61,195 nucleotides of DNA, from NCBI GenBank assembly GCA_938002655.1, contig CALLAC010000019.1:1-61195 (forward strand). Reading direction: 5' to 3'. A model generated the notes under the pieces. It was given only the letters and a program-made list of their open reading frames with translations. It ran no database searches and had not been told where the DNA came from. The DNA is from an uncultured Cytophagales bacterium. GTDB taxonomy: Bacteria; Bacteroidota; Bacteroidia; Cytophagales; Thermonemataceae. Shown in pieces: positions 5,301 through 19,069 of the stretch. How positions within the stretch are numbered: position 1 is the stretch's first letter; every line of letters begins with the position of its first letter. Both the position numbers and the translations under genes were made by a program.

Positions 5301-5552
5301 AATTACAGCCTGATTGTAACGAGAAACTGAACTGATTTTTTTCAGATGTGGAATTTGTGAAAAAGCATTTTCAAGAGGAGCTGTCAGCTTTTCTTCTATG
5401 GTGCTGGGGTCGGTTTGGGGCATTGCTACGCTTACTTGCAAGATAGGCTCGTAACGTGTAGGCATCAAATCCACAGAAAGTAAAGGCAAAACAGTCACTC
5501 CCGCCACCGAAAGCACCACAAAAACAAAAACTACACGAAACGGCGAAAGCAT
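2364..5552 (-). CDS. RND efflux permease, CusA/AcrB superfamily
   Basis: This 1062-residue inner-membrane proton antiporter has the normal RND length and duplicated layout: TM1 at about 7-25, a large periplasmic porter domain, a TM cluster at about 330-490, a second porter domain, and a TM cluster at the C-terminus. The TM4 motif LLIDNAVMV places a charged Asp at residue 401, equivalent to the AcrB proton-relay Asp407. The second position is Asn, as in many HAE1-type pumps. It starts 31 bases after the adaptor gene and is surely co-transcribed with it. Oddly, the loop after TM4 (residues about 410-425) is encoded by a palindromic repeat element. No TolC-type outer-membrane gene is in the window. 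The substrate cannot be predicted. Confidence 0.93.
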   Translation of the reverse strand: MLSPFRVVFVFVVLSVAGVTVLPLLSVDLMPTRYEPILQVSVAMPQTDPSTIEEKLTAPLENAFSQIPHLKKISSVSRYNQAVISLHFENAKDLAMARFEVATIIRQIYPKLPVGCSYPEVMQSADEDSEKMPLLVYSVNAPIASYQIKKVVEEAFLNALLAEKSVEKVEISGAENLQISIQYDTEKLLAYRISPEEILEKIQKNYQNEYLGLVRKNNQQFFLQIVPSNAKISDLENIVIAEIGDRNTQNLQKILLKHLATIGIEEQEPQGYFRINGLNSVRLLVYARAGVNQIKVAEELASRIKYLSQNLPASFQIILESNQVENLAKEIKKNYQRASYAVAILLLFVLLWYRNFKKVFVLISSLLVNVTLLSLVLYFLKISVHLYTLAGITVSLGLLIDNAVMVLHHFSRAFRLRSTPQEKRLKEAENTLTRALWGSTFAVIAALSLVFFLPEKERMDLTDFLIVVSCNLFISLIVATIFTPALYRLLHKQETEYRTQEYQLQSQTFRKKRIAYKIFSWYARLIYFLQNYRKTFTLLVVLIFGTPIFMLPTQVQGWEWYNKTLGSEWYLENIRPLLDKYLGGTLRLFAYNVYENSGYRNLERTQLFVQAEMPMGTTLEQMNEVILKMEGYLKKVQQENKGLEKFVTNIYSPQYAQIIIYFDKNTERSSLPYQLKSRLIAFSLDMGGVTWRVYGVGEGFSNATGEQMASFRVEMRGYNFENLEKQAEILAQKLLTHKRIQAVNTNERMSYFEKKSREIRWELLYEDMQLAQINTYQVSNALRLQNKPKAPQGALLIENKYLPLLIKAREAEKFSLQAMSAEPLQEARRGKVFKMNTLTKNKESFSQSAIYKENREYIRLVSFEYMGSNKFGQEFLDKKLAEMRLEMPAGYKATQQDFKFWSREQKRRQYELLAIVFAGIFVVCSVTFESFRKAFFTLLTIPVSFIGLFLIFYAGNYYFDQGGYASFILLSGTVVSASIFILVEWQAQSRRSGYQLLKIAFYKFVPVCITILTSILGFIPFLLEGDKEVFWFSLALGSIGGLLVSLFAVWICLPVWISKNRK
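4285..4325. repeat. REP-like palindrome inside RND permease coding sequence
   Basis: An imperfect palindrome with arms TTTTCTTGGGGCGTT and AACGCCCGAGAAAA encloses the core AGCGGAGCCGAA at 4301-4312, which is also found at 1648-1659. It is read in frame by the permease gene and encodes a basic cytoplasmic loop after TM4. It stands out as a local GC-rich stretch in an AT-rich gene. Confidence 0.55.
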
Positions 5553-5583
5553 CTTAATTGTCTATTTTTTTTGGAGCAGTTTA

Positions 5584-6657
5584 TTATTTTTTCTTTACTC
5601 TCACGGGCGAATCGTGGTTGAGTTGTAAATTATTGGAAATGATAACTTTTTCATTTTCTTTCAAGCCTTCCAAAATTTCTATTTCTTCGCCGTTGTCTAA
5701 GCCTGTTTGTACGTAGTGCCATTTGGCAAGTCCTTGTTCTTCGGTAAAAATCACTTTTTTACCGCTACGTATCACGATTGCCTGTTTGGGAATAACAAGA
5801 GCTTCTTTCTGCGGAACAAATACTTTTACCTGCAAATTTGCTCCTAAAAATACATTTTTGGGATTTTGCAAATCTAATTTTACCTTAAATAAGCCATTAT
5901 TTCCTACTTTGGGGTTGATTTCACTGATGATTGCCTGCATTTTACAAGTGCTTTCATTACAACCTAAAAGATTTACTTCGGCTTTTTGCCCGATTTTTAG
6001 GGTAGTTACTTCGGTTTCCAACACCTCAATAACAGCCTGCAAAGCACTGCTATACAAAGTGCAGACGGCTTGCGAAGGGCTGACGAAATTTCCTGCTTTG
6101 AGCGTAAGGTCGGCGATAGTACCTGCAAACGGAGCTTTGAGCGTAAGGAATTGCAGTTGTAATTCGGCTTCTTTAATTTGCAATTCGGCGGCTTGCACAC
6201 CTTTTCGGATTAAAATGCGTTCGTTGAGTTTAGGGTCTATGCCTCCCTCAGGCAAGGCAGGGTTTCCGCCGAAATCTATGAGTTCTTTGATGTATTCTTC
6301 ATAAGCAACGGCTTTTTGATTTTTGGCTTTCTGGAGGGCGAGTTGGGCTTCTCTATCGTCTAAAAGTGCTATGGCTTGCCCTGTTTGCACGAATTGTCCG
6401 TTTTGCACAAGCACTTGTTTTACATAGCCCGAAGTACGAAACTGTAAAACTGCTTGCTCACGAGCTTCTACTTTGCCATTGCTTTGGAGCGAGTAAGTAA
6501 AATTTTTACGCAAAGCAGGAGTTACTTCCACTTCCAGAACATCTTCCGAGAGTTTTTGTGGTGAGCTACTTTCTATTTCAGAACTTTCGGAATTAGACTG
6601 ACACGCACCAAGGCAAAGCAAGATAAACCAAATAAAGTTTTGCAGGTATTTCTTCAT
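5584..6657 (-). CDS. RND efflux periplasmic adaptor (HlyD/MFP family), lipoprotein
   Basis: The 357-residue membrane-fusion protein has a lipobox ending LCLGAC with Cys19 as the predicted lipidation site. The usual MFP order follows: a first half of the barrel-sandwich (biotinyl-lipoyl-like) domain at about 70-105, containing GYVKQVLVQNGQFVQTGQ; a short helical hairpin at about 105-165; the second lipoyl half with LKAPFAGTI at about 172-180; a beta-barrel; and a C-terminal membrane-proximal domain. It bridges the RND permease to an outer-membrane channel. It lies directly upstream of the CusA-like permease and 40 bases downstream of the last propeller gene of the cassette. A related second permease lies on the far side of that cassette. 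Confidence 0.93.
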   Translation of the reverse strand: MKKYLQNFIWFILLCLGACQSNSESSEIESSSPQKLSEDVLEVEVTPALRKNFTYSLQSNGKVEAREQAVLQFRTSGYVKQVLVQNGQFVQTGQAIALLDDREAQLALQKAKNQKAVAYEEYIKELIDFGGNPALPEGGIDPKLNERILIRKGVQAAELQIKEAELQLQFLTLKAPFAGTIADLTLKAGNFVSPSQAVCTLYSSALQAVIEVLETEVTTLKIGQKAEVNLLGCNESTCKMQAIISEINPKVGNNGLFKVKLDLQNPKNVFLGANLQVKVFVPQKEALVIPKQAIVIRSGKKVIFTEEQGLAKWHYVQTGLDNGEEIEILEGLKENEKVIISNNLQLNHDSPVRVKKK

Positions 6658-6697
6658 AAAAAGGTTTTATGAAGTGTAAAGATAAAAAAATTCTTAA

Positions 6698-7822
6698 TTA
6701 TTCTGCCACAAATTCTACCAAATCATAGACGAGTTCGTCTTCGTTATCGGTGAAACGCTGTATCCACATTCCTTCGGGGGTGAAGAAGATATTTGTCATT
6801 GAGTAATTAACTTTATGTGTTTCAAATAAAAGAACTTCGCCTATATTTGCAAAATTTTCATCAAATATACCCAAAAATCCTTTTGAATACTTATCTTTTT
6901 TTGATTTATTAGGTAATGGAATATCTATTGCTCTGTAAAATTCTTTTTTGTAGGGATTATAGTAAATATTAAAGTAAGAGGGGTTACTATTAAATATTTC
7001 AGTATTTTCTTGTGGATTTTCGACACGTTTATTTATTGAAGGGATTTCTACAAAATTTGGCGAATTTAATTTTTTCTCTTCTACTATATGATAATTCTCA
7101 TCAGTTATTTGAATGCTTTGATTGGCAAAAAAACCATAAATAAACTTTTTTTTATCTTCTAAAAATATTCTACTATAAAAACTATGTCCTAACGCAAATT
7201 TTTTTTCCTTATATAATTTAGGAAAGCTCATCGCATACTTAAAATTTTTTGTATTTAAGTCTAAAATGATACTTAGTGCTTTTCTATTATAGTAGCTATC
7301 TTTGTATGGATTATCGTCTGGATAAGAAGCAATGTGTAATTTTTTATCTAAAAACACAGGAGGACAATTAAAAGGAAATATATTTGGCAAAGCAGTAGCA
7401 GATGAATGTTTTTTCTGTTTAATAAGAGAGTATTTTTCTTTGACATTTCCTTCTTGATTTATCAGGAAAACCTTGTATTGATAGCTGTTCACTACAAAAA
7501 TGGTATCATCATTATGATATAAAAATTGATGTATATTGCCAATTGCATTATCTCCTTCATTGGCAAATTTTATTCTCTGAGATAGCCTTTTTTGTTGTAT
7601 ATCGTATAAATCCAAAGAATTGATTTTTTTGTTGATAAAAGCTAAATATTTATCTTTTATTACTTGTGGATTAGAAAGTTGATTAGTTGTAAGGCTATCC
7701 AAAGATATTGAAATGGTTCTTGTTACTTTTATTTTATTTTTAAATGATTTTTTATCAAAATCTTTTGATTGACAAGATACAAAAAAAGTAAGTACAAGTA
7801 AAATATAACTTTTACTATTCAT
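6698..7822 (-). CDS. Cassette unit A: beta-propeller lipoprotein (DUF4221-like)
   Basis: The 374-residue exported lipoprotein has a lipobox ending FFVSC with Cys17. The rest is all-beta repeats with recurring blade-like motifs (NSLDLYDIQ, DDTIFVVNSYQYKVFLINQEGNV), consistent with the DUF4221 family of Bacteroidota propeller lipoproteins. The C-terminus PEGMWIQRFTDNEDELVYD is nearly identical to that of unit B, and the last 89 bases of both genes differ at one position. The middle of the two proteins is much more diverged. The gene follows peptide A after a 66-base gap containing a hairpin. Related Bacteroidota propellers often neighbour small NVEALA-type peptides. A binding partner relationship is an inference; molecular function is unknown. 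Confidence 0.8.
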   Translation of the reverse strand: MNSKSYILLVLTFFVSCQSKDFDKKSFKNKIKVTRTISISLDSLTTNQLSNPQVIKDKYLAFINKKINSLDLYDIQQKRLSQRIKFANEGDNAIGNIHQFLYHNDDTIFVVNSYQYKVFLINQEGNVKEKYSLIKQKKHSSATALPNIFPFNCPPVFLDKKLHIASYPDDNPYKDSYYNRKALSIILDLNTKNFKYAMSFPKLYKEKKFALGHSFYSRIFLEDKKKFIYGFFANQSIQITDENYHIVEEKKLNSPNFVEIPSINKRVENPQENTEIFNSNPSYFNIYYNPYKKEFYRAIDIPLPNKSKKDKYSKGFLGIFDENFANIGEVLLFETHKVNYSMTNIFFTPEGMWIQRFTDNEDELVYDLVEFVAE

Positions 7823-7848
7823 AATGAAACTTTTTAATCAAAAAGTAG

Positions 7849-7877
7849 AAAGGCTAAAAATTATAATTCTAGCCTTT
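7849..7877 (-). terminator. Unit A hairpin between peptide and propeller
   Basis: An 8-bp stem AAAGGCTA/TAGCCTTT with a 13-base loop lies 12 bases after the peptide A stop codon. On the transcript it is followed by a U-rich stretch (CUACUUUUUG). It looks like an intrinsic terminator or attenuator that would make more peptide message than propeller message. Confidence 0.6.
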
Positions 7878-7888
7878 TTTCATTTATA

Positions 7889-8113
7889 TTAAGGGGTGAT
7901 TACTATATCATCTAAGCAATCACTTCCACCGTTCACACAACCATAATAATTTGTTCCAAGAATTGTAAAATCCACCCAAGTTCTATTATTCCCGTTTGGT
8001 GGGTCGCTGATATCAATTGATTTCTTTTGTCCCTCCACTTTTTGTGGAGCAAAAATAACAAAATTTGCTAGCACCACCGCCAGCACGCCGAGTTTTTTGA
8101 GTTTGTTTTTCAT
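7889..8113 (-). CDS. Cassette unit A: small exported peptide with two Cys
   Basis: This 74-residue precursor is the only cassette peptide with a normal ATG. Its signal peptide (about residues 1-29) has a charged KNKLKK start, a hydrophobic core GVLAVVLANFVIFA and the ending PQKVEGQ. The mature part is about 45 residues, with an NRTWVDF segment, two Cys in YYGCVNGGSDC and an acidic end DDIVITP. It resembles peptide B across its mature region (DIS, N-R-x-W, YGC...C, VxTP). By size, export signal and pairing with a propeller lipoprotein it looks like an NVEALA-type Bacteroidota peptide, but the NVEALA motif itself is absent. Activity is unknown. Confidence 0.75.
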   Translation of the reverse strand: MKNKLKKLGVLAVVLANFVIFAPQKVEGQKKSIDISDPPNGNNRTWVDFTILGTNYYGCVNGGSDCLDDIVITP

Positions 8114-8185
8114 TGCCGTAAAATTTTAATGTGAAACAAAAATTTAACGGCAGCAAATGAAAAAAATCACATTTCCAAATTTTTT
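8114..8185 (-). promoter_or_regulatory. Unit A conserved leader
   Basis: This is one of four long copies of a leader that precedes the cassette peptides. It includes a stem-loop at 8115-8151 (GCCGTTAAATTTT pairing with AAAATTTTACGGC with one mismatch), ending just before the ATG. It also holds the shared TTTCACATT loop and a GGAAATGTGATTTTTT stretch upstream. The conservation outside the coding region suggests shared transcriptional or translational control. No exact TAnnTTTG promoter element is present. Confidence 0.6.
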
Positions 8186-8201
8186 GAGTGTTTTTTTATT
8201 T

Positions 8202-8231
8202 TGGGGACAGATCGCAACCAGTCCCTGCAAT
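8202..8231. repeat. GGGACAG palindromic repeat, copy 1
   Basis: The palindromic sequence GGGACAG-ATCGCAACC-AGTCCCTGCAAT lies 12 bases downstream of the unit B propeller stop codon. A clearly related element is at 14531-14560 and a decayed one at about 9800-9834. All three mark the junction between one gene's end and the next leader, so they may be boundaries of the duplicated unit or small mobile palindromes. A terminator role is also possible. Confidence 0.45.
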
Positions 8232-8242
8232 TTTACGTATTT

Positions 8243-9364
8243 TTATTCTGCCACAAATTCTACCAAATCATAGACGAGTTCGTCTTCGTTATCGGTGAGA
8301 CGCTGTATCCACATTCCTTCGGGGGTGAAGAAGGGTTGTAGTATATTGTATTTTTTTTTGTCGTTTATTAAAAAATCTCCAATAATTTTAAAATTTTTAT
8401 CTAAAACAATTACACCCAATTTTTCAATCTGCTTATCTTGTTGTTGTACCTTTAAAGAGAAAAAACGATAAATAAGATCTTTGTACGAGTCGTAATGTAT
8501 AAAATTAAAAAAAGAAAGTTTATTGGCTATTATATTATTTGACGTTTCATCTAAAATTTCTTTCTTTAGGTTTTCTACCTTTTTTAAATATTTACTATTA
8601 GCTATATATGATTTTTTATTTTTGTGTTCATAGTCATATACTATAATATTTTCATCAGCAAAAAAACTATAAAAAAAACTTTTTTTACTGGTAGAAAATG
8701 CTCTCGAAAAAGAACTAAGGGCATAAGGATATATTTTATTTTTGTAAATATCGGGAAATCCTACTTTTATGTCAAAAAAGTGATTTTCAGTATTTAATAC
8801 AATTAAGTTTTGCTCCTTTTCATAATAATCTTTTTGAAATGGATTGCTATCAGGAACTGAAGAGATATATAGATTTTTTTTGAAAAAAACCATTTTATGC
8901 CAAGGAAAGGGGTCAGGCATTGCTGTTTCTTTGCCAACTTTATTCTTCAGTAAATTGTACTTGGTTATTATTTTTCCTTTATCATTTACCAAGAAAACTT
9001 TATAGCCGTAACAATTCAATAGAAAAATAGAATCTTGTGTATGCACTAAAAAATCATTTATAACCCCAACACCATCAATTCCTTCTTTTTTTAAAATTAT
9101 CCTTTTTTGCAAAATTCCACCATCTTTGAAATCATATACATCAATTGATGTATTTTTTTGATTGAGTATAAATAGTTTATTATCTAATTTTTGAGAAACA
9201 GTGAATACTTGAGGTGTAACACTGTCAATATCAATTTTTAAGCTCTTTATTACTTTAAATCTACCATCTTTTAACTCTTTATTTGCATCTCTGCAAGAAA
9301 GTAGCAATAGGAAAAAGGCTAATAAAATACTTGTTTTAAAGAAAACTACTTTGGTGATTTTCAT
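8243..9364 (-). CDS. Cassette unit B: beta-propeller lipoprotein (DUF4221-like)
   Basis: The 373-residue lipoprotein has a long signal ending LLLLSC with Cys24. It is homologous to the unit A propeller along its length: both share blades such as TSIDVYDFK/NSLDLYDIQ, DSIFLLNCYGYKVFLVND, a PDSNPF/PDDNPY loop, SFFYSFFADENI/KFIYGFFANQSI and the near-identical C-terminal 29 residues. The body is diverged while the 3' 89 bases are almost identical, which points to gene conversion or a recent partial duplication. It follows peptide B after a 110-base gap with a 13-bp hairpin. Role unknown; by context it is the surface-anchored partner of peptide B. Confidence 0.8.
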   Translation of the reverse strand: MKITKVVFFKTSILLAFFLLLLSCRDANKELKDGRFKVIKSLKIDIDSVTPQVFTVSQKLDNKLFILNQKNTSIDVYDFKDGGILQKRIILKKEGIDGVGVINDFLVHTQDSIFLLNCYGYKVFLVNDKGKIITKYNLLKNKVGKETAMPDPFPWHKMVFFKKNLYISSVPDSNPFQKDYYEKEQNLIVLNTENHFFDIKVGFPDIYKNKIYPYALSSFSRAFSTSKKSFFYSFFADENIIVYDYEHKNKKSYIANSKYLKKVENLKKEILDETSNNIIANKLSFFNFIHYDSYKDLIYRFFSLKVQQQDKQIEKLGVIVLDKNFKIIGDFLINDKKKYNILQPFFTPEGMWIQRLTDNEDELVYDLVEFVAE

Positions 9365-9420
9365 CTCAATCGTTCAAATATAAATAATATAAGTACAAGA
9401 TAATATTGGTGCTTAACTTA

Positions 9421-9462
9421 ATGAAACCTTGAATATTCCAGAAAAAGTTTTCAAGGTTTCAT
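9421..9462 (-). terminator. Unit B hairpin between peptide and propeller
   Basis: A perfect 13-bp stem ATGAAACCTTGAA/TTCAAGGTTTCAT with a 16-base loop begins 13 bases after the peptide B stop. It sits at the same place as the hairpins of the other four units but has an unrelated sequence. The following bases (UUAAGUUAAG) are not a clean U-tract, so attenuation or RNA stabilisation is as likely as termination. Confidence 0.6.
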
Positions 9463-9474
9463 AAGATCATAAAG

Positions 9475-9675
9475 CTATGGGGTAACCACTACATCAGCCA
9501 TACAGTTACCACCTGTACTTCTGCAACCATAAAAATTAAAGATGCCCACATAGATATCTATCCAAACTCTGTTGTCTTGATCAGGATTTTCACTTATGTC
9601 AATTGGGATTGTCCCCTGTCCCTCCACTTTTTGCGGAGCAAAAATAACAAAATTTGCTAGCAGCACCGCCAGCAT
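9475..9675 (-). CDS. Cassette unit B: small exported peptide with two Cys
   Basis: The frame from ATG at 9675 gives 66 residues. They start MLAVLLANFVIFAPQKVEGQ (signal region), followed by a mature part with NRVWIDIYV, two Cys in FYGCRSTGGNC and the end ADVVVTP. It is the closest relative of peptide A. Read upstream in the same frame, the codons spell GNKNKKLG, the charged n-region expected of the signal peptide, but the ATG seen in copy A is ATA here and out of frame. The start at 9675 is therefore uncertain, and true initiation may be non-canonical. It pairs with the unit B propeller. Confidence 0.7.
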   Translation of the reverse strand: MLAVLLANFVIFAPQKVEGQGTIPIDISENPDQDNRVWIDIYVGIFNFYGCRSTGGNCMADVVVTP

Positions 9676-9783
9676 GCCGAGTTTTTTGTTTTTATTGCCG
9701 TAGAATTTTAATGTGAAACAAAAATTTAACAGCTATAAAGCAAAAAAAAATCACATTTCCAAATTTTTGGGGAAATATTTTTT
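9676..9783 (-). promoter_or_regulatory. Unit B conserved leader
   Basis: This copy of the cassette leader has the stem-loop at 9697-9733 with the shared TTTCACATT loop. A dyad CCAAA-AA-TTTGG flanked by ATTT/AAAT lies near 9758-9780 and could be an operator. Most of the block matches units C and E base for base. Confidence 0.6.
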
Positions 9784-9799
9784 GTGTTTTTGGTGATTT

Positions 9800-9834
9800 T
9801 GTAGGGAAAAACGGAAATAAACTGTCCTTTTACA
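9800..9834. repeat. Possible decayed GGGACAG palindrome
   Basis: GTAGGGA and CTGTCCTTTTACA flank a diverged centre, matching the ends of the elements at 8202-8231 and 14531-14560. It sits about 50 bases downstream of the unit C propeller stop. The match is weak. Confidence 0.25.
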
Positions 9835-9883
9835 TTTATTAGCAATCTTTATTTTTTTTGAGATAATTGTCTCTTAATTTCTA

Positions 9884-11005
9884 TCACTCAATAGGTTTCA
9901 TTTTTATCAATATTAGATTAGGATTTTCAGGTTTATCTACCGATTTTTTACTAAAAGATTTAGATAAATTTATCTGAAAAGGACTATGAACTAGTTTTTT
10001 CAAATATACATCTTCAATAAACACAGCCGCCACAAAGTAATCTTCAAAAGTACCCACTATTCTAGGCATAACAGATTCGTAAGTAATATCATTATTTTCG
10101 GCATCATCAGCTTTAAATAAGATACTTTTCTTACTCTTTTTATCATAGTATACAATATGATACACTTGATTATACAAAAAAGCAAAGTAAATGTATTGAT
10201 TTGTTTCAAAGTAATATTTTATTCTTCCCATTTTATTAGATGGAAAATTTCTATCTTTATTTTTCATTATTTGTTTCGCTTCTTCTTTGCCTATTTTCTT
10301 ATCTCCAAAATCTATGAAAACGTGAGGAATAAGTCTATTATTTTTTATAGCATAAATTGTATCGTTGAGATAATGCCTATAAAGTATTTTTTCATTCATA
10401 GCTTGTAGCGGTTGAATAAAGCTCAAAGGATGTAAACTATCTTTTCTGAACAATTCTAGTATTTTTTTATGGTTGCTATCTACTGCAATTAAGTCAAATT
10501 CTTGTCCGATAAAAGCTTTTATAGGATAATTAACACAAAAATTGGTAGCTACGAATGATAATCGCTCTTTTCGTAAAAACTTTCCTGAGTAAGAATAATA
10601 CATGAGATTAGGAGTTGAGTGTATAATTAAATGTTTAGATTTTCTATCTATGTCAAAATCAGATATGTGTTCAAATTCTCCCTCTGCTCCACCGCCAGCT
10701 TGTAAATGATATAAATATTTACCAGAGGTATCAAAAACCATAACTCCTCTAAAAAGATAAGTATCTAAAACGAAAATCTTGTCCCCGTCTATTTGAACTT
10801 TGTCTATCGACCTGATTATCAGTGAAGAATCTCTAGTTTCCAGAGAAATGTATTTAATATCTTCAATGAAACTTGATAATTTTTCGTTCTTATTCAAGTT
10901 CTTTATATCAACTGGTACTACTAAAATTGATTCGGATAATTCTTTTTTTTCTTGTTTACAAGCAAATAAGGCAAGAAATATCAAGCTAAATCCTAATTTT
11001 TTCAT
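9884..11005 (-). CDS. Cassette unit C: 6-bladed beta-propeller lipoprotein
   Basis: The 373-residue lipoprotein (lipobox LALFAC, Cys16) has the layout of the 6-bladed beta-propeller family (PF17170 type). It opens with SFIEDIKYISLETRDSSLI, then a calcium-like or blade segment DKIFVLDTYLFRGVMVFDTSGKY and the typical GGGAEGEFEHISDFDID stretch. It is clearly homologous to the unit E propeller over its whole length and only distantly like units A and B. It follows peptide C by 79 bases with a hairpin in the gap. Members of this family are common Bacteroidota surface or periplasmic lipoproteins of unknown ligand. Confidence 0.82.
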   Translation of the reverse strand: MKKLGFSLIFLALFACKQEKKELSESILVVPVDIKNLNKNEKLSSFIEDIKYISLETRDSSLIIRSIDKVQIDGDKIFVLDTYLFRGVMVFDTSGKYLYHLQAGGGAEGEFEHISDFDIDRKSKHLIIHSTPNLMYYSYSGKFLRKERLSFVATNFCVNYPIKAFIGQEFDLIAVDSNHKKILELFRKDSLHPLSFIQPLQAMNEKILYRHYLNDTIYAIKNNRLIPHVFIDFGDKKIGKEEAKQIMKNKDRNFPSNKMGRIKYYFETNQYIYFAFLYNQVYHIVYYDKKSKKSILFKADDAENNDITYESVMPRIVGTFEDYFVAAVFIEDVYLKKLVHSPFQINLSKSFSKKSVDKPENPNLILIKMKPIE

Positions 11006-11028
11006 ATAAAATTAAACAAGGTTTAAAG

Positions 11029-11055
11029 ACATACTAAAATTTTATTTTAGTATGT
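11029..11055 (-). terminator. Unit C hairpin between peptide and propeller
   Basis: A perfect 11-bp stem ACATACTAAAA/TTTTAGTATGT with a 5-base loop lies 30 bases after the peptide C stop. On the transcript it is followed by CUUUAAAC. Same position as in the other units, unrelated sequence. Confidence 0.6.
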
Positions 11056-11084
11056 TTAGAGTTTCGTATATTGTTTCGGAAAAA

Positions 11085-11291
11085 CTAAAACCAACCACCG
11101 TAGCAATCTGACATATCACCACACTTACAAAGCACACCTGTTCCTCCTCTTACACAAACTTGCCGCTCACCTGTAAACCATCCTTCACAATCAATTATTT
11201 TTACTCTACATTCTTTATCATCTGTTTGTTTCTGCCCTTCCACTTTTTGTGGAGCAAAAATAACAAAATTTGCCAGCACTACCGCCAGCAC
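11085..11291 (-). CDS. Cassette unit C: six-Cys exported peptide
   Basis: From a GTG at 11291 the product is 68 residues: signal segment MLAVVLANFVIFAPQKVEGQ, then a Cys-rich mature part. The six Cys lie in ECRVKIIDC, QVCVRGG, VLCKCGDMSDC and the end is YGGWF. The pattern C-x6-C, VCV-K/R-GG, C-x-CG-x-MS-x-C, GGW is shared with peptide E. The GTG is the only canonical start, because an in-frame TAA lies at 11325-11327 and no ATG, GTG or TTG occurs between. Three disulfides are possible after export. It resembles NVEALA-type Cys-rich peptides by context, not by motif. Confidence 0.72.
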   Translation of the reverse strand: MLAVVLANFVIFAPQKVEGQKQTDDKECRVKIIDCEGWFTGERQVCVRGGTGVLCKCGDMSDCYGGWF

Positions 11292-11398
11292 GCCGAGTTT
11301 TTTGTTTTTATTGCCGTAGAAATTTTAATGTGAAACAAAAATTTAACAGCTACAAAGCAAAAAAAATCACATTTCCAAATTTTTGGGGAAATATTTTT
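11292..11398 (-). promoter_or_regulatory. Unit C conserved leader
   Basis: This cassette leader copy has the stem-loop at 11313-11350 and the upstream ATTTCCCCAAAAATTTGGAAAT dyad split around 11371-11392. It has one base more than copy B near the stem, which places a stop codon in the peptide frame and restricts where translation can start. Confidence 0.6.
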
Positions 11399-11413
11399 AT
11401 TATTTTTTCATAA

Positions 11414-12454
11414 TTATATTTTAAGATGAAATTCATAAATGTTATACGTAACGTTTCCTTGTAAATACAGTACATCATTTTGGCTATCTACGTGCAGAGC
11501 ATCAAAATGAATAGCATCATCTTCAGTATTAGTTTTTATTTTCAATATTTTATGCAATTTGACTTCAAGTTTGCTTTCATCTACATTAAAAACCAGAATA
11601 TGCCTTGCATGTTTTCTATTAGTACCTATTCTATCAGTAAAAGTAGCATACAACTTCCCGTTTGCATAGAAGCTATTCATAAAAAGATTCCTTACATTTT
11701 GCCTTGTTGCTGGTGAAAGACTTACATCTCTTTGCATAGAATCTATAGCTCTTTGAATGGGTTCGTAGTGAGATATATTGATACGTTTTAAAAGTTCACC
11801 CGTAGAAGTATTGTAGAAATCCAAATAGCCCCAAGTTCGGCTCAAAGCGATGATTTTCTGATTTCCTGTAAGCTGAATATGTTTGTAATGAGCAATCAAA
11901 TTATTTGTTTCAATAGGAAATTTTTCACCAAACCATTTCAGGGTTTTTCCTTGCGAATTGATTTTCAGAATACTTTTACCTTCTTCATCAGGCTCGGAAG
12001 ATAGGTAAAAATTACCTAAACTATCTCTTGCCCAAACCGAACCAAAGACAGATTTTGCTTCTATTTTACAACTACCTATGTACAGACCATTTTTACTATG
12101 GTAAGCATTTATTTTAAAGCTTGCATCTTCAACGAATAATGTATCGTTACGAACTAAAATATTCAAGGGATAGCGAAGCTCATCGGGGGCATCACCTTTT
12201 TTGGCTATTGTATAGATAGGCTCGTACTTTCTATTAGTTACAATTATACGTGCATTGGCTTCATCACAAAATATAATCAAATCTTTGTATGTGTGAATTT
12301 TGACTTTTTTGAAAAATAGGGTATCAGCAATTTTTGAAATTACTTTGGCAGGTTTGAGCGTATCTAATAAAATGGTTTTACTCTCCCTTTTGCTTTGCAA
12401 GTTGCAAGAAATAGCAATGAAAAGGAAAAAAAGAAAAAAAGTAATTGTAGGCAT
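11414..12454 (-). CDS. Cassette unit D: divergent beta-propeller lipoprotein
   Basis: The 346-residue lipoprotein (lipobox FIAISC, Cys17) is predicted all-beta. It has propeller-like repeats such as KDLIIFCDEANARIIVTN, an IAKKGDAPDELRYPL stretch typical of 6-bladed propeller lipoproteins (compare GxGPgEf), NDTLFVEDASF and a C-terminal NDVLYLQGNVTYNIYEF. It is not closely related to either the A/B or the C/E propellers, and its partner peptide D is also of a different class. It lies 50 bases downstream of peptide D. The BF3164/TolB-like lipoprotein group is a possible home. Function is unknown. Confidence 0.75.
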   Translation of the reverse strand: MPTITFFLFFLFIAISCNLQSKRESKTILLDTLKPAKVISKIADTLFFKKVKIHTYKDLIIFCDEANARIIVTNRKYEPIYTIAKKGDAPDELRYPLNILVRNDTLFVEDASFKINAYHSKNGLYIGSCKIEAKSVFGSVWARDSLGNFYLSSEPDEEGKSILKINSQGKTLKWFGEKFPIETNNLIAHYKHIQLTGNQKIIALSRTWGYLDFYNTSTGELLKRINISHYEPIQRAIDSMQRDVSLSPATRQNVRNLFMNSFYANGKLYATFTDRIGTNRKHARHILVFNVDESKLEVKLHKILKIKTNTEDDAIHFDALHVDSQNDVLYLQGNVTYNIYEFHLKI

Positions 12455-12468
12455 ATCTTTAAGAAATT

Positions 12469-12498
12469 AAACTTGTGAAGAAACTTCTTTACAAGTTT
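12469..12498 (-). terminator. Unit D hairpin between peptide and propeller
   Basis: An 8-bp stem AAACTTGT/ACAAGTTT with partial inner pairing (AAGAA/TTCTT) begins about 6 bases after the peptide D stop. It is weaker than those of units B, C and E but in the same position. Confidence 0.5.
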
Positions 12499-12504
12499 TG
12501 ATTT

Positions 12505-12717
12505 TTAAGATTTTGTTTTGGGTTGTCTTCCTCCTCCACAAGAAGCAGTATTAGAACTTCCATTATGATTGGTACAAGTTACAAAGCCATCGCCTGCATG
12601 ACAACTATGACTGCCACTACAACTAACCGTACCACCATTCGCACAACTTGCACTTGCAGTACAAGCGATAGCACTTATACTATCCGTAAAAAAACTTGTT
12701 GCCAATAGAAATAGCAA
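12505..12717 (-). CDS. Cassette unit D: Ser/Gly/Cys-rich exported peptide
   Basis: The frame read from a TTG at 12717 gives 70 residues. Upstream codons in the same frame spell the GNKNKKLGV n-region shared with the other units, so the real start is unclear. The hydrophobic segment LLFLLATSFFTDSISAIA ends near the mature part, which has six Cys in a rhythm of C-x5-C and C-x4-5-C (IACTASASC, VSCSGSHSC, VTC, ASCGGG). It ends in a basic PKTKS tail. The VSCSG...C pattern recalls small secreted Cys-rich Bacteroidota proteins, from memory only. It differs from the other four peptides, as does its propeller. Confidence 0.62.
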   Translation of the reverse strand: MLFLLATSFFTDSISAIACTASASCANGGTVSCSGSHSCHAGDGFVTCTNHNGSSNTASCGGGRQPKTKS

Positions 12718-12770
12718 AACCCCGAGTTTTTTGTTTTTATTGCCGTAAAGTTTTAATGTAAAACTTCAAC
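12718..12770 (-). promoter_or_regulatory. Unit D short leader with covarying stem
   Basis: Only the start-proximal part of the cassette leader is kept here (ACATTAAAACTTTACGGCAAT). The upstream arm has changed so that AAGTTTT still pairs with AAAACTT (12748-12766). This keeps a small stem next to the start although the long leader of the other units is gone. Confidence 0.45.
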
Positions 12771-12834
12771 TATTTTCTAAAATTCTGTATCTTGTTTCTT
12801 TTTTTCTTACTGCAAACTATACCTAGCCAATCTT

Positions 12835-13965
12835 TTATTTTAATTTTAACAAAACTAAGTTCGGATTATGAATATCGTTTGGCTCACCTTTGTTCTGAAA
12901 AGATTTGATTACTTTTATAGAAAATTTATTAAGATTGATATTTTTCAAGTCTAAAACAGTCTGTTGAGCATCTACTACTGCAATCAGCTGATTTTCGTGA
13001 GTGCCTACAACATAAGGCAAGGTTTCTTCTAAAGTTATATCGTTTTGTTTTTTTGCATTTCCTTTGATTATTTGTGTATTTTTCTTTCTTTTATCATAAA
13101 AAGCAACGTAAATCATTCCGTTATAGTCAAAAGTAAAATAAACAATATCTTTTGTATCGAAGAAATATTTGATATGCCCCATTTTACCTTCGGGCATTTT
13201 CGTAATATTGTTTTTTATCATATTTTCTATTTCTTTTTGGGTAAGTTTTTTATCCTGAAAATCTATGATAGCATATTTTTCTAACTTTTCTTGATTGACT
13301 ATGTAAACAGTATCATTGAAACTATGACGAAATAATATTCCTTTTTCTTGAACTTGAAAAGGCTGTATAAATTTGAGTGGGTGAATTTTATTTTTATCGA
13401 AATATTTTGAAAGAATTTTTCCTTCGTAATCTGTTACAATCAATCCATATTCTTGTCCGATGAATGTATTGATTTCACCATTGGTTTCAAAATCGCTTGC
13501 TAAAAAGTCTAATTTCTTATCGCTTAAAAACTTACCTTCGTACGAGTAATACAATAGTTTAGGGGTAGAAAAAATGATAAGTTGTTTTCTTTTTTTATCT
13601 ACACTCATGCCTGATATATGTGTAAATTCTCCTTCTGCTCCGCCACCTATTTTTTTAGAAAACAAAAATTTCCCTGATGTATCAAAAGCCATTACCCCTT
13701 GAAATCTGAATTTATCTAGAATAAATATCTTATCATCATCAATGATGACTTTATCTATTTCTAAAAGAACATTTGCAGAGTCTTTCGTTTCAAGTTTGAT
13801 AGGTTTTACATCTTCTATTAAATCTGAATAGTTAAGCGTAGTTGTAATTTGCTCGGTACTTAAAGGAATTTGCAAAATAGATGAATTTATTACTTTTTCA
13901 CGTGATTGTGAGCAAGCAGAAAAAATAAACAATACGCTCAAAAAAAATAAATTACTTTTATTCAT
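12835..13965 (-). CDS. Cassette unit E: 6-bladed beta-propeller lipoprotein
   Basis: The 376-residue lipoprotein (lipobox IFSAC, Cys18) is a full-length homologue of the unit C propeller. Both share SDLIEDVKPIKLETKDS, DDKIFILDKFRFQGVMAFD, GGGAEGEFTHISGMSVD and STPKLLYYSYEGKFL. The similarity spreads over the whole gene with many substitutions, so this is an older duplication than the 3' ends of A and B. The gap to peptide E is 222 bases, the longest in the cassette, and could hold its own promoter, though I see no clear TAnnTTTG element. It is the first propeller in transcription order. Confidence 0.82.
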   Translation of the reverse strand: MNKSNLFFLSVLFIFSACSQSREKVINSSILQIPLSTEQITTTLNYSDLIEDVKPIKLETKDSANVLLEIDKVIIDDDKIFILDKFRFQGVMAFDTSGKFLFSKKIGGGAEGEFTHISGMSVDKKRKQLIIFSTPKLLYYSYEGKFLSDKKLDFLASDFETNGEINTFIGQEYGLIVTDYEGKILSKYFDKNKIHPLKFIQPFQVQEKGILFRHSFNDTVYIVNQEKLEKYAIIDFQDKKLTQKEIENMIKNNITKMPEGKMGHIKYFFDTKDIVYFTFDYNGMIYVAFYDKRKKNTQIIKGNAKKQNDITLEETLPYVVGTHENQLIAVVDAQQTVLDLKNINLNKFSIKVIKSFQNKGEPNDIHNPNLVLLKLK

Positions 13966-14131
13966 TTTATTTTTAAGTTTTGGTTATTAGTAATTTTTTA
14001 GGTTTAATTTGTGATATAGAAACTGGATTTAGAGCGTTGTATATGTTAGATAGAATAAAACTTTTGCCTCAAACGCTTGAACATCTAAACTCAAACAAAA
14101 TTTGAACGTAAATAATTACAGTTATTAAAAA

Positions 14132-14177
14132 ATGCCCACTTTTTCAATGATTAGTAAATAGTAAAAAAAGTGGGCAT
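14132..14177 (-). terminator. Unit E intrinsic terminator after peptide gene
   Basis: A perfect 13-bp stem ATGCCCACTTTTT/AAAAAGTGGGCAT starts 10 bases after the peptide E stop and is followed on the transcript by UUUUUU. This is the clearest intrinsic terminator of the cassette. It should uncouple most peptide transcription from the downstream propeller. Confidence 0.75.
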
Positions 14178-14187
14178 AAAGCAACTA

Positions 14188-14400
14188 TTATTTCCACCAA
14201 CCACCAAAACAAGGGCTCATTTCTCCACAATTACAACTATATTCTATGTCTCCTCCTTTCACACAAACTAGTCTATCACCTGTTCCTATCCCAGGACAAT
14301 CAATTTTTATGGTAGTGCAACCAGAACCGCCTCCTGTCTTCTGCCCCTCCATTTTTTGCGGAGCAAAAATAACAAAATTTGCTAGCACTACCGCCAGCAC
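14188..14400 (-). CDS. Cassette unit E: six-Cys exported peptide
   Basis: Read from a GTG at 14400 the product has 70 residues. The signal region is MLAVVLANFVIFAPQKMEGQ. The mature part opens with TGGGSGC and has six Cys in GCTTIKIDC, LVCVKGG, YSCNCGEMSPC, ending FGGWWK. It is homologous to peptide C, with the same Cys spacing and the same GGW ending. As in units B-D, the conserved upstream codons GNKNKKLG lie in frame but have no ATG. It pairs with the unit E propeller, itself homologous to the unit C propeller. Disulfide-bonded, surface or secreted product is an inference. Confidence 0.72.
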   Translation of the reverse strand: MLAVVLANFVIFAPQKMEGQKTGGGSGCTTIKIDCPGIGTGDRLVCVKGGDIEYSCNCGEMSPCFGGWWK

Positions 14401-14513
14401 GCCGAGTTTTTTGTTTTTATTGCCGTAAAGTTTTAATGTGAAACCAAAATTTAACGGCTACAAAGCAAAAAAAAAAAAAATCACATTTCCAAATTTTTGG
14501 GGAAATATTTTTT
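14401..14513 (-). promoter_or_regulatory. Unit E conserved leader
   Basis: This leader is the first in transcription order. It has a stem-loop at 14422-14458 (GCCGTTAAATTTT with AAAACTTTACGGC, two mismatches) and a 13-A run. The ATTTCCCC-AAAAA-TTTGGAAAT dyad is at about 14483-14506. It begins soon after the repeat at 14531-14560. Confidence 0.6.
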
Positions 14514-14530
14514 ATGTTTTTGTCATTTCT

Positions 14531-14560
14531 TAGGGACAGGTTGCGACCTTTTCCTACAAT
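14531..14560. repeat. GGGACAG palindromic repeat, copy 2
   Basis: TAGGGACAG-GTTGCGACC-TTTTCCTACAAT is similar to 8202-8231 and lies nine bases downstream of the RND permease stop codon. A near-palindromic form would be GGGACAGGTTGCGACCTGTCCC. It marks the upstream edge of the peptide/propeller cassette and may also end RND transcription. Confidence 0.45.
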
Positions 14561-14568
14561 AAATTTAT

Positions 14569-17500
14569 TTATTTTTTCGCTAAAAATCTATATGCCAACG
14601 ATACAAAAAACAAAGATGTAAATGTTCCGAAACTCAAACCTCCGATAATAGCCAATACGAAAGGTCTTTGCAAATCGCCACCGATGCCCGTATCAAAAAG
14701 AAAAGGTACAAGAGCTAAAATATTTGTAAGCGAAGTCATTAGTACAGGTTTAAAACAAATTTCACCCGCTTTGCTGATGGCTTCATCAAAACTCATTCCT
14801 TCTTTACGCAAACGATTGATAGTATCAATTTTCAAAATGGCTTCATTATCAATAATTCCGAGCATCACCACCAGCCCAATCGCCGACATCACGTTCAGGC
14901 TTGCACCACCCAACCATACCCCCAACAAACTGCCCGTAAAACCCAACGGAAGCGTACAAAGCACTATCAAGGGTTGGCGAAGGCTCTCAAATTCTATCGT
15001 CAGAATAAGATAAAGCAAAGCCGTTGCAACCAATAAAATAATTCCTAATTCTTTCAAATTCTCTCTATTTTCAAAATATTGCCCCGAAAAATCTACTTGC
15101 CAAGTTTTTTCTTTGCTTTTCAAGAGAATTTCTTCGCTTGTCTCGTCTATTTTTTCCTCATTTTCTTTGCTAATTTCCAAACTATGAAAAACACCTATTT
15201 TATCGGCAGTAAGTGTTTTGTAAGTGTTTTCAAACTCGAACTTTACAAAAGATGCCAAAGGATACAAACTCGTACTATCTTTGCGAATAAACGATTTTTG
15301 TATTTTTTCTTCAAAATCTTCTTGGCTTTCTCCCAAACGAACAGGCAGAATGGTACCAAAGCTCCGAATATCAACAATTGCTTTGGCTGTAAATAGGCTT
15401 TTTAAGGCTTCAATAATTTGCTCACGACTTACCTGCTTGCTGATGAGCTCATCGTCAAGAATATGCACTTTCACTTGCGTTTCGCTTTGCAGACCTTTGC
15501 CCAAATTCAGATAATTGCTGTTCTGTTTTTCCAAAAAATCTTGCATTTCGGTAAAAGGAATAGGCAAGTTTTTTTGCAAGTTTCGGATTTTTATTTCGTA
15601 GTAAGGTGTATTTCTTGCAAAAACTAAATCAAACACGTTGGGGGCTTCACTTACTTCAAAGCGTGCTTGCGGGTAATTTCGCTTCAAAAAATACTGAATA
15701 TCTTTTATCAAAGATTTTTTATAGGAAAACTTCTTGAAATTGATATACACTTCCGCTTGTCCGAGATGTTGACTTTCTTTGCCAAATAAAAATTGGCTGA
15801 TTCCAATATCAGCTTCCGAGAAATCGGCAAATTTCTGATATTTTTCCAAAAATATTCGCACTCTATTTTCGTTTTCTTGCAAGCTAATGGGTTCGTTCCA
15901 ATTGATTTTGACTACTACATCGGTTCTTTTGATAGGTGGCAAGCCCTCGATAGGCAATAAAAAAGCAATGCTCAATCCTACAAATCCCGAGAGCAAAAAT
16001 ATCCAAAAACTCAAAACAGGTTTTCGGAGCAGAAATGTGTAGATTTTTTTATAGATTTTTAGCAGAAACAGATACAAACGGGTATCTTCTTTGGGCATTT
16101 TTTGCGATTTTTGGAAAAATAAAACATACAGCAAAGGCAAAAGTACGCAAGAAACTAAAAGCGAAGTTGCCAGAATTGCCCCAACGGAAATGGCTTGGTC
16201 TTTGGTAAAAGCCCCTGCCAAGCCGCTCAAAAACACAAGTGGCACAAACACGGCAAGCGTAGTAAGCCCCGAACTAAACAAGGGAGCAAACATTTCGGCA
16301 GTACCTTTTACGCAAGCCTCAAAAAGTGGTGTACCTTGCAAGCGTTTTTTGGAGATATTGTCAAAAATGATGATGGCATTATCAATCGTCATACCCAACC
16401 CCAAAGCCAAGCCCGAAAGCGAAACAATGTTGATAGAAGTGCCAAAAATCCAAAAAACCAGAAAACTTGTTACAAGCGAAGTAGGCAAAATAATGCCAAT
16501 AATGAAAGGAACTTGATAGTTTCCGATAAAAATAAATAAAATCAAAAAAGCAAACAAGCCTCCCCAAAGAAGGTCATTTTGCAGGTTACTAATGCCAGCC
16601 TCTAAAAGCGTGTATTGATTTTGGCTTAATTCGAAAGCTAAAAACGGATATTCTTTTTCCAAAATGCTTTTAGTTTCATAAATTTTGGGAATAAGTTTAT
16701 CCATTTGGGCATCGGCTTGCTTGTGGAGTGTAAGCACGATGCTATTTTGCAAGTTGCTTAGGTGGCTGGCTTGGGCTTGTTCGGCGGTTTCTTTTAACTC
16801 AGCAATTTCTTTCAGAGCAATTGCCTTGCCCGTAGCAGAGAGCACAAATATTTTTTCCAAATCGGCAATAGAAGTAGTTTGCGAACCGATTTTCACAAAA
16901 TAGCGATACTGCCCATCACGCACCGAAATAGCTCCTAAATCTTGGTTTGCTTCTTGAATAGCCTGAAATACTTGTTTTTCGGTTATTTGCAGAGCATCAA
17001 GCATAGTTGTTTTCAAATGAACGGCTATCATTTTGCGTTGCAATCCGTTCATATCTACCAGCGAAATACCTTCGAGGGCTTCGATGCGTTTTCGGATAAC
17101 TTTTTCTACCAATTCCGATACTTGCAGCAAATCTCCTTGTTTAGGCGTAATTTGCAGACGTATAATAGGCACATCTGCTGTATTCAAGCGAACCACTTGT
17201 GGGCGAGGTAAATTACGAGGCAAATTCTGGGTGAGCTGGTCTATTTTCTCGTTGGCTTCCAAATAAGCGTACTGCATTTGCGTTCCTTGCTCAAAAAACA
17301 GCTCTACTATGCCACTTTCAGCATTGGCTTGGCTACGTATATCTTTGATTTGTGGCAAGGAAAGCATCTTTTCGCGAATAAGACGCAAAATATTTTCTTC
17401 TATTTCGGCAGGCGAAGCATTCGGGTAGGTAATTTTGATGACAATCTGTGGCACATCGGTTTCAGGTAAAAGCGAAACCGGTAAATGCACAAAGGCAAGT

Positions 17501-19057: not shown

Positions 19058-19069
19058 GCTTTCAATCAA

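Follow-up and report, generated by a model that had tools for sequence, protein, structure and literature searches.

A tandem array of small peptides and β-propeller lipoproteins within an RND efflux operon of a Raineya-genus bacterium

To our knowledge, no function has been described for either the DUF4221 or the NVEALA family, and no paper naming either was found in the open-licence PMC literature. In NVEALA (PF14055) systems, a short cysteine-containing peptide with a signal-like start is encoded in the slot just before a DUF4221 or DUF5128 lipoprotein. The array reported here has the same layout; however, its peptides lack the NVEALA segment, and the array as a whole lies inside an RND operon. 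RND pumps have mostly been studied as drug and metal pumps. Contact-dependent and bacteriocin systems have orphan immunity arrays, to which the long tandem runs of a presumed protective gene without its partner in one family of relatives (f20) can be likened, although no known toxin domain is present here.

Two further systems resemble the locus in fold or in route. A profile of the cassette propellers matches the DUF4221 structure 3s9j (BVU_1028), which is listed with no function, over nearly its full length (7e-71), and the same structure ranks first when a low-confidence model of propeller 1 (pLDDT 62) is searched with Foldseek, followed at ranks 2 to 14 by BtuG-type surface propellers. BtuG proteins, the B12-binding surface propellers of Bacteroides, share the lipid-anchored propeller fold but differ in sequence (8-13% identity) and in ligand, which for the cassette propeller is proposed to be a peptide. 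PMC6143338 describes BtuG as a lipoprotein of the cell surface with very tight ligand binding. For the route, the review PMC5985334 describes a Sec-exported peptide with two disulfides, STII, that leaves the periplasm through the tripartite pump MacAB-TolC. The order of events proposed here (Sec, signal cleavage, disulfides, and a tripartite pump drawing from the periplasm) is alike; MacAB is an ABC transporter, whereas the permeases here are of the RND type. The likeness is one of route.

Organization of the array

The window, that is, the whole stretch of 61,195 nucleotides analyzed, comes from a Raineya-genus member of the Bacteroidota, kin to hot-spring Raineya. Positions 6698-14513 hold five tandem units on the minus strand, where all features of the window given below also lie. 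Five peptide and five lipoprotein ORFs alternate in the ORF listing, bearing out the five-unit array described in an earlier note on this DNA, and every unit reads leader, peptide, hairpin, and propeller lipoprotein. The array is embedded in an RND efflux operon (2364-17571) in the order permease 1, array, adaptor, permease 2. Permease 1 (R1 clade, 1,000 aa, 14569-17571) is directly upstream; directly downstream is the periplasmic adaptor (5584-6657), which scores 169.9 bits against the TIGR01730 cut-off of 94.9, followed by permease 2 (1,062 aa, 2364-5552), placed in the R2 clade by clade comparison. The earlier note mentions neither this operon nor the CxxC lipoprotein that relatives have, nor does it mention that four units have lost their start codon.

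Peptide 1 (74 aa, 7889-8113) has 2 Cys and an intact ATG. The ORFs and a comparison of starts indicate that the ancestral ATG is lost from peptides 2 (66-aa frame, 2 Cys, with an inner ATG; 9475-9675), 3 (68-aa frame, 6 Cys; 11085-11291), 4 (70-aa frame, 6 Cys; 12505-12717), and 5 (70-aa frame, 6 Cys; 14188-14400). The proposal of a small signal-peptide-bearing peptide in each unit thus holds for the five ORFs of 66-74 aa, but a normal start remains in unit 1 only. Signal peptides were recognized by inspection together with a hydrophobicity rule, and a rule of our own making was used to call short signal-like ORFs. Unit 4 deviates from the others in having its own signal sequence and its own peptide type. 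No window peptide reached a Pfam cut-off, and PF14055 gave no match at E up to 1, in line with the reported absence of the NVEALA motif. Immunity, toxin, and bacteriocin models were likewise without a match, both in the Pfam search of the window and in profile scans of 72 collected peptides, for which the NCBIfam scan returned three weak matches only.

All five lipoprotein ORFs carry a lipobox-like Cys. Propellers 1 (374 aa, 6698-7822; Pfam 1.9e-26; nearest solved structure 3s9j) and 2 (373 aa, 8243-9364; 1.1e-21) belong to DUF4221 (PF13970), with 93.9 and 78.2 bits against a gathering threshold of 23.4 and matches that span most of the domain. Propellers 3 (373 aa, 9884-11005; 1.7e-38) and 5 (376 aa, 12835-13965; 8.8e-37) belong to the DUF5128 6-bladed propellers (PF17170), with 133.1 and 127.4 bits against 22.9. 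Lipoprotein 4 (346 aa, 11414-12454) is divergent and propeller-like: it has no Pfam match, aligns in part with the DUF5128 profile (hhalign 84%, 170 columns), and gave an AlphaFold model too poor for use (pLDDT 44). The earlier description of five lipid-anchored propellers of 346-376 aa is borne out, with lipoprotein 4 as the divergent member.

A hairpin separates peptide from propeller in all five units, as had been noted, at 7823-7888 (z -4.31), 9365-9474 (z -2.04), 11006-11084 (z -3.29), 12455-12504 (z -2.64), and 13966-14187 (z -2.48) for units 1 to 5. Upstream of each peptide is a leader, which in unit 1 (8114-8181) comprises a putative promoter-like region and 5' UTR. Over about 150 bp, the unit-1 leader has 86-88% DNA identity with the leaders of units 2 (9676-9765), 3 (11292-11381), and 5 (14401-14513, with a run of 14 T); the part it shares with unit 4 is a short block of about 35 bp (12718-12764; 92% over 45-80 of the query). 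Across the array, near-identical unit ends flank diverged cores. Near-identity holds for the leader and signal blocks and, between units 1 and 2, also for the tails, where one block at the C-terminal ends of propellers 1 and 2 agrees at 59 of 60 bases; the bodies are mostly near 50-60%.

Start-codon lesion in units 2 to 5

The leaders of units 2-5 carry the same lesion at the same place, an ATG changed to ATA plus a 7-bp deletion. Because the four units share it, the ancestral start is kept in unit 1 only. The frames of units 2-5 open solely at an inner ATG, GTG, or TTG, without the Lys-rich n-region, and on sequence grounds four of the five copies seem to be without a normal start signal. A lesion shared in this way suggests that peptides 2-5 are probably silent or weakly made in this strain. 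Conversion or exchange may have carried it from unit to unit together with the leader block. In Raineya orbicola (G001), all three peptides found have an intact ATG. All five propeller frames are intact, and probably silent peptides beside intact propellers are what one would expect of protective propellers and costly peptides.

One intact unit beside four with an identical lesion, together with near-identical blocks around diverged bodies, would also fit an arrangement in which unit 1 is the expression site and units 2-5 are silent variant cassettes, with recombination between the near-identical leader/signal and tail blocks bringing other mature peptides and propellers to the intact start. 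We consider this improbable. The intact starts of the R. orbicola units mean that such an arrangement is not a conserved device; moreover, units 2-5 retain a promoter-like leader, and the weaker constraint in units 3 and 5 (dN/dS 0.55) is as expected of decay. The unit-1 peptide, compared with its R. orbicola counterpart, is under purifying selection (dN/dS about 0.1).

Peptide-propeller pairs in other genomes

A peptide lies just upstream of 67 of 254 DUF4221/DUF5128 propellers but of 11 of 771 other genes; for DUF4221 outside family f20, the count is 38 of 56 sampled propellers. Family f20 itself is rich in peptide-less propellers. The earlier note had named two outcomes that would speak against its reading: peptides found next to such propellers in no other genome, and peptide frames free of purifying selection. 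Given the recurrent pairing and the constraint on the unit-1 peptide, neither applies. Its statement that NVEALA-type peptides neighbour propeller lipoproteins is also seen in two genomes (G290, G398), directly upstream of DUF4221/DUF5128. In our Cytophagales-heavy sample, PF14055 matches only 5 of the 72 collected peptides; absence of the motif is therefore the usual state in this sample.

The peptides are highly variable, with a mean column identity of 12% and several paralogues per locus, and they vary together with their propellers. The correlation is 0.69 within genomes (null 0.04) and 0.41 between genomes (null 0.13), and in each case 0 of 2000 shuffles reached it. Signal peptides track the propeller less (0.35 within and 0.20 between genomes). 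Signals are more alike among the peptides, while mature parts follow the propeller. Such co-diversification is also the outcome of linked operon inheritance without contact. Peptide 3 resembles a peptide of another genome (G037) whose partner is a DUF5128 propeller (E 1.1e-4). The notion of a polymorphic secreted-peptide system is supported in part, by the pairing, the purifying selection, and the diversification of the peptides; the suggestion that five repeats are unusual is not borne out as worded, as one relative (G444) carries nine peptide-propeller pairs in 36 kb among the stretches fetched.

Hairpins recur as well, in 54 of 59 peptide-propeller gaps against 47 of 150 controls. Tandem duplication of propellers without peptides is common in f20, as would be the case if the array were an ordinary paralogue expansion of unrelated neighbours with no joint function. 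That account, already disfavoured, is very unlikely: several families and classes show the pairing, the hairpin placement, and the co-variation of peptide with propeller, and the mature parts follow the propeller, the signals being more uniform. The propeller-only runs of f20, up to 14 genes long with gaps of mostly a few bases, look like orphan-immunity arrays. From the parts and their linkage we infer a function, and we see an even chance that a Bacteroidota module which makes and exports small disulfide-type peptides, with the propeller as cognate partner, has expanded locally to give the array.

The likeness of propeller 1 to BtuG-type propellers, and the tight binding ascribed to the latter, raise the possibility of a propeller on the outer face that, like BtuG with vitamin B12, captures a peptide, here one made by the same strain, and so serves self recognition or quorum sensing; LuxR-type regulators were noticed in two cassette loci (G555, G444). 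We regard such a pheromone-receptor pair as possible, if somewhat unlikely. The regulators occur in those two loci only, the model is of low confidence, and no TonB-dependent transporter or B12 or TonB gene was recognized when window genes around the array were scanned. In addition, the acidic share at positions +2 to +6 after the lipid Cys of peptide-bearing DUF4221 is 0.12 (lipobox called in 45 of 52), compared with 0.09 in adaptors (21 of 24), 0.14 in CxxC lipoproteins (32 of 34), and 0.19 in peptide-less DUF4221 (153 of 171). These residues do not clearly resemble a strong surface-export signal.

RND permeases, CxxC lipoproteins, and a possible export route

Both window permeases are of the AcrB family by PF00873; against the named RND subfamilies of NCBIfam (MdtB/C, AcrB, CusA, and others), permease 1 reaches at best 459 of 1250 bits and permease 2 at best 252 of 1250, both below the curated cut-off. 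Cassette-linked R1 permeases score 421-1584 bits to the window permease and cassette-linked R2 permeases 613-1284, against at most 259 and 157, respectively, for the other same-family RNDs compared. Near peptide-bearing cassettes, permeases of these clades are present in 15 of 26 genomes, and the adaptor recurs there too; among control regions, 0 of 18 have such a permease. The permeases were unseen in the fetched stretches of the other 11, two of which (G041, G043) have R1 nearby by coordinates, leaving 9. By region, the clades accompany 16 of 39 peptide-bearing against 5 of 55 peptide-less regions (P 3.6e-4); the second batch (10/19 against 3/36, P 4.9e-4) agrees, and the first alone (6/20 against 2/19, P 0.24) is not significant. 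Of 390 genomes, 61 have both the R1 clade and DUF4221 (70 and 68 positives, kinship not corrected). R1 pumps of f20 are also often apart from peptides: the 1.5-kb flanks of f20 R1 loci held no clear Cys peptide in 21 of 21, and one of all 28 R1 loci looked at has one (L260). Frames at L254, L263, and L280 were rejected as peptides, since they look like chance frames or cut genes.

In relatives, 25 of 63 peptide-bearing propellers are followed directly by a gene for a CxxC lipoprotein, against 5 of 183 peptide-less ones; none was found in the window array. A lipobox Cys, an invariant CxxC, and a thiol-oxidoreductase match place it among thioredoxin-like lipoproteins. C16, C53, and C56 are invariant in 25 aligned members (chosen from 34 found), the best PDB match of the profile is the thiol oxidoreductase 8t4c (1.3e-5), with a cytochrome c second (7e-4), and none of seven members scanned has a Pfam family above cut-off.

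AcrZ reportedly modulates or gates AcrB. The linkage to one RND subfamily pair and the CxxC lipoprotein as third gene could accordingly mean that the peptides serve the pump or envelope, by gating the permeases as AcrZ does or by reporting thiol or envelope stress to the propeller. This seems unlikely, because the peptides are far more variable and more numerous per locus than expected of a pump subunit, and propeller arrays also occur without peptides or pump nearby. The recurrence of the peptide-propeller pair in many relatives, often near one kind of pump, suggests an undescribed peptide-export system. In such a system, Sec would export the precursor, which would be cleaved in the periplasm; the CxxC lipoprotein, or else a general enzyme, would oxidize its cysteines; and the RND tripartite pump would pick up the peptide from the periplasm and expel it. 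The propeller would bind the peptide cognate to it, acting most likely as an immunity or retention factor, otherwise as a receptor, and the hairpin would allow more peptide than propeller to be made. More tentatively, and short of calling it probable, we propose an undescribed peptide-warfare or signalling system, scattered across Bacteroidota, with variable disulfide peptides, two-step export by Sec and a dedicated double-RND pump, cognate propellers, a frequent thiol-oxidoreductase lipoprotein, propeller-only banks of orphan immunity genes, and, in this Raineya genome, four of the five peptides disarmed at the start codon with all propellers retained.

Once DUF4221 and NVEALA are linked to the hairpin, the CxxC lipoprotein, and the RND clade pair, these orphan families become open to testing as an operon, and an unnamed RND subfamily gains a substrate hypothesis. 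Should the pairing of peptides with propellers be one to one, the loci would offer a ready panel of peptide-binding specificities. One genome with no DUF4221 match (G007) encodes a peptide, a propeller-like lipoprotein, an adaptor, R1, and R2 in a single run.

Array composition and the state of its peptide genes

The window corresponds to contig 19 in a 44-contig genome of 2.64 Mb, and all five minus-strand units of the array reported in the earlier note (6698-14513) are present as described. Every DUF4221 and DUF5128 match of the genome falls within this array (two each; genome-wide search at E 0.001). The two-Cys peptides 1 and 2 sit ahead of DUF4221 propellers and the six-Cys peptides 3 and 5 ahead of DUF5128 propellers; unit 4 is the odd one out, with a different signal sequence, peptide, and lipoprotein. 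AlphaFold returned no usable model of lipoprotein 4 (pLDDT 44). A model of propeller 1, built from 4 sequences (pLDDT 62), matched the DUF4221 structure 3s9j first and BtuG-type surface propellers thereafter. VIA-align also ranked 3s9j top (Z 11.8, rmsd 5.4, 225 aligned), with unrelated propellers close behind, and the propeller family profile matched it at 7e-71. A DUF6520 identity for peptide 1 was rejected (E 0.1, under the family cut-off).

Kinship assignment places the contigs of Raineya orbicola SPSPC-11 in the same genus as the window genome; R. orbicola, a cultured member of the Bacteroidetes, is described as slightly thermophilic and as originating from a hot spring in Portugal (PMC5982127). 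A related-locus search built on a 4-sequence alignment matched only the two R. orbicola loci, a 12-sequence alignment having no conserved stretch. In pairwise profiles, the leader and signal region are near-identical among units, as is the final propeller stretch of units 1 and 2 (59/60 bases in one block), while unit bodies mostly share ~50-60% identity. The units thus seem to swap or retain common ends while their cores diverge.

Alignment with three R. orbicola leaders revealed a lesion common to units 2-5, in which the start ATG has become ATA and 7 bp are deleted; unit 1 keeps the ancestral ATG, as do all three of the R. orbicola units found. No in-frame ATG, GTG, or TTG lies upstream before a stop in units 2-5. 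The openings left in frame are an inner ATG (unit 2), GTG (units 3 and 5), and TTG (unit 4), all of which cost the signal peptide its lysine-rich beginning; the peptide frames themselves remain open. Initiation at the non-standard ATA was rejected, as this codon lies in a different frame from the peptide and a frameshift would also be required. An assembly error is improbable given the identical change in four copies with differing downstream sequence. Because unit 4 carries the lesion despite its otherwise different signal, the leader block appears to have spread among units by conversion or exchange.

Compared with its counterpart in R. orbicola, the peptide of unit 1 gave a dN/dS of 0.12 (mature part, 0.09), with synonymous sites near saturation; this is close to permease 1 (0.07) and below propeller 1 (0.18). 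The earlier note had named a lack of purifying selection as a refuting result; peptide 1 does show such selection and is thus a real gene under constraint. Unit 2 and the nearest R. orbicola peptide gave 0.16 over the whole frame, the mature part being saturated, and the start-less peptides of units 3 and 5 gave 0.55. Expression of peptides 2-5 may be weak or absent, or these genes may have been lost recently.

T runs of 7, 9, 8, and 14 occupy a matching leader place in units 1, 2, 3, and 5 (about 8157, 9749, 11366, and 14485), and two R. orbicola leaders have runs of about 14 and 11; such length variation could render expression phase-variable. On R. orbicola contig 40 (L084, 6587-7642), a propeller ends in a TPPPTPPQRGGG tail and shows an in-frame loss of the shared C-terminus, as would follow from insertion of a small repeat.

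Pairing, hairpin, and co-variation in other genomes

We searched 59 relatives (DUF4221 in 12, DUF5128 in 15), a phylum sample of 395 genomes (DUF4221 in 14 at E 1e-12), and an order sample of 390 genomes (DUF4221 in 70), and analyzed 20 + 19 + 60 stretches around matches plus 18 control stretches. Peptides were called by a home-made rule: an ATG start, 40-125 aa, a hydrophobic run early in the sequence, Lys/Arg close to the start, and ≥2 Cys after the run, with the ORF ending ≤450 bp upstream of the propeller. Propellers with <600 bp of upstream sequence were left out of the pairing count. Since the rule requires ATG, window units 2-5 were scored as peptide-less in the pairing, region, and f20 counts.

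The adjacency predicted in the earlier note holds elsewhere: a peptide precedes 67/254 propellers (DUF4221, 52/223; DUF5128, 15/31) versus 11/771 other genes and 5/168 other lipobox-like genes, in stretches picked from matches, often several per genome, with kinship ignored. The low overall rate reflects family f20, whose DUF4221 propellers mostly lack a peptide (14/167 with one, versus 38/56 elsewhere) and often stand alone or form peptide-less runs of as many as 14 genes, most of them separated by just a few bases. One peptide call, in G617, is probably a cut lipoprotein; it was excluded when pairs and hairpins were counted and the region table was compiled, and is still included in 67/254, 14/167, 25/63, and 45/52 (the last being lipobox calls among peptide-bearing DUF4221 propellers). 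Among the f20 loci L213-L226, runs comprise 3-14 such propellers without peptides, likewise closely spaced; four of the five listed lie at one syntenic place near apparent carotenoid genes (named by inspection), and propeller copy number varies between species. Matches of 2/72 peptides to the AimP lysogeny peptide (best 7.7e-4) and of one peptide to a cytochrome (0.0083) were judged to be chance.

Many relatives have a third cassette gene encoding a ~150-aa lipoprotein with an invariant CxxC, found directly after 25/63 peptide-bearing versus 5/183 peptide-less propellers; the window array is without it. None of seven such lipoproteins reached the cut-off in a Pfam scan. Against the PDB, their profile matched the thiol-disulfide oxidoreductases 8t4c (1.3e-5) and 2lja (0.0013); one cytochrome c ranked between the two.

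Every window unit has a hairpin within the peptide-propeller gap. Fifty-nine such gaps, 35-280 bp long (relatives, 54; window, 5), were folded with 40-200 shuffles each, alongside 150 randomly chosen gaps between other same-strand genes in the stretches analyzed. A z below -2 was obtained for 54/59 peptide-propeller gaps (median -4.3) versus 47/150 controls (median -1.1; Mann-Whitney P 9e-14), and this excess makes a stem-loop 3' of the peptide gene a recurrent part of the cassette design. It would act as a partial terminator or RNA-stabilizing stem, raising peptide above propeller.

Across 72 pairs in 26 genomes (65 elsewhere, 5 in the window, and 2 from R. orbicola added by hand), mature-peptide similarity tracks that of the adjacent propeller (r 0.41 between genomes, 0.69 within). 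Reshuffling partners inside genomes lowered r to 0.13 and 0.04, and 0/2000 shuffles reached the observed values; without Raineya, the trend stays (0.42 versus 0.13). Signal peptides track propellers less (0.20 between, 0.35 within; reached by 65 and 1 of 2000 shuffles). This co-variation is consistent with cognate pairs, although linked inheritance alone would yield much of it. As an example spanning families, peptide 3 is similar to a peptide of G037 (E 1.1e-4) whose partner, a DUF5128 propeller, is the top match outside the genus for both propellers 3 and 5. The picture for peptide 5 is less clear: a G239 peptide from a DUF4221 unit (0.12) was marginally closer outside the genus than the G037 one (0.08). 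A homologous pair for peptide 4 and protein 4 in G041 is only suggestive (E 0.0036 and, in a single comparison, 0.008).

Linkage to RND pump genes

RND permease 1 (14569-17571) borders the array on one side, and an RND adaptor (5584-6657) with permease 2 (2364-5552) borders it on the other. In R. orbicola, this gene order is split over two contigs, one with permease 1 and one with adaptor and permease 2, both carrying cassettes towards the contig end. Cassette-adjacent permeases of other families mostly belong to the same two clades, with scores of 421-1584 (R1) and 613-1284 bits (R2) against the window proteins. Other RNDs from the same family that were compared reached at most 259 and 157 bits; one cassette-region permease in G491 and one in G730 belong to neither clade.

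Among regions of at least 8 kb, an R1/R2 permease occurs in 16/39 peptide-bearing versus 5/55 peptide-less regions (Fisher P 3.6e-4). The first batch of stretches alone gave 6/20 versus 2/19 (P 0.24) and the second 10/19 versus 3/36 (P 4.9e-4); control regions had 0/18, two containing pieces of other RNDs. Per genome, R1/R2 lies near peptide-bearing cassettes in 15/26, and in two of the remaining 11 (G041 and G043) coordinates place R1 some 4 kb away from a DUF4221 gene, leaving 9. Order-wide, with kinship ignored, R1 (E 1e-180) occurs in 68/390 genomes and DUF4221 in 70/390, with both in 61; outside f20, the figures are 15 and 19 genomes, 10 shared, again with kinship ignored. G007 has R1, R2, and the adaptor with no DUF4221 match; ahead of its adaptor are genes for a Cys peptide of 63 aa and for a lipoprotein that resembles the propellers (hhalign 95%). 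No clear peptide lay within 1.5 kb of the 21 f20 R1 loci examined, so this pump clade also has other settings.

Adjoining permease 1 are two short similar proteins (17608-18093 and 18551-19069) with signal-like starts and weak coiled-coil matches, and the region is flanked by a Uma2 endonuclease-like gene (1759-2319) and a short HSDR_N-domain gene (23652-24092). At L139 in G216, an ABC transporter pair (named by inspection), adaptor, and outer membrane efflux protein lie across the propellers' other side.

A proposed export route

Beyond what was observed, namely the parts and their order, the hairpin, selection on peptide 1, co-variation, and pump linkage, we propose that the precursor would be exported by Sec, cleaved near VEG/VEA-Q as read off the sequence, and disulfide-bonded; the RND pump would then expel the peptide from the periplasm, and the propeller would bind its own cognate peptide. 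A described parallel is STII, a two-disulfide peptide for which the review PMC5985334 describes Sec export, Dsb oxidation, and expulsion by MacAB-TolC, likened there to the way RND pumps are proposed to take up substrates from the periplasm. We lean towards the propeller being an immunity factor rather than a receptor, because propellers outlive peptides: four starts are lost here with no propeller frame broken, and f20 has long propeller-only runs.

The families and folds are already known by name. No description of the assembled peptide-propeller-pump module was found in the literature searched, NVEALA and DUF4221 included; in PMC10434189, the RND and propeller mentions are expression-table rows pointing out no such operon. 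We class the module with systems of secreted peptide, partner, and exporter, and keep a more radical reading open.

G444 and G515 carry macrolide-type glycosyltransferases (UDPGT/EryCIII-like) within their cassettes, and in G515 and G737 the adaptor is adjoined by DUF6734 genes (L175, L184, and L182); peptide modification is a possible role for both. LuxR-type (GerE) regulators lie within two cassette loci (L180, 5751-6401; L175, 7843-8055).
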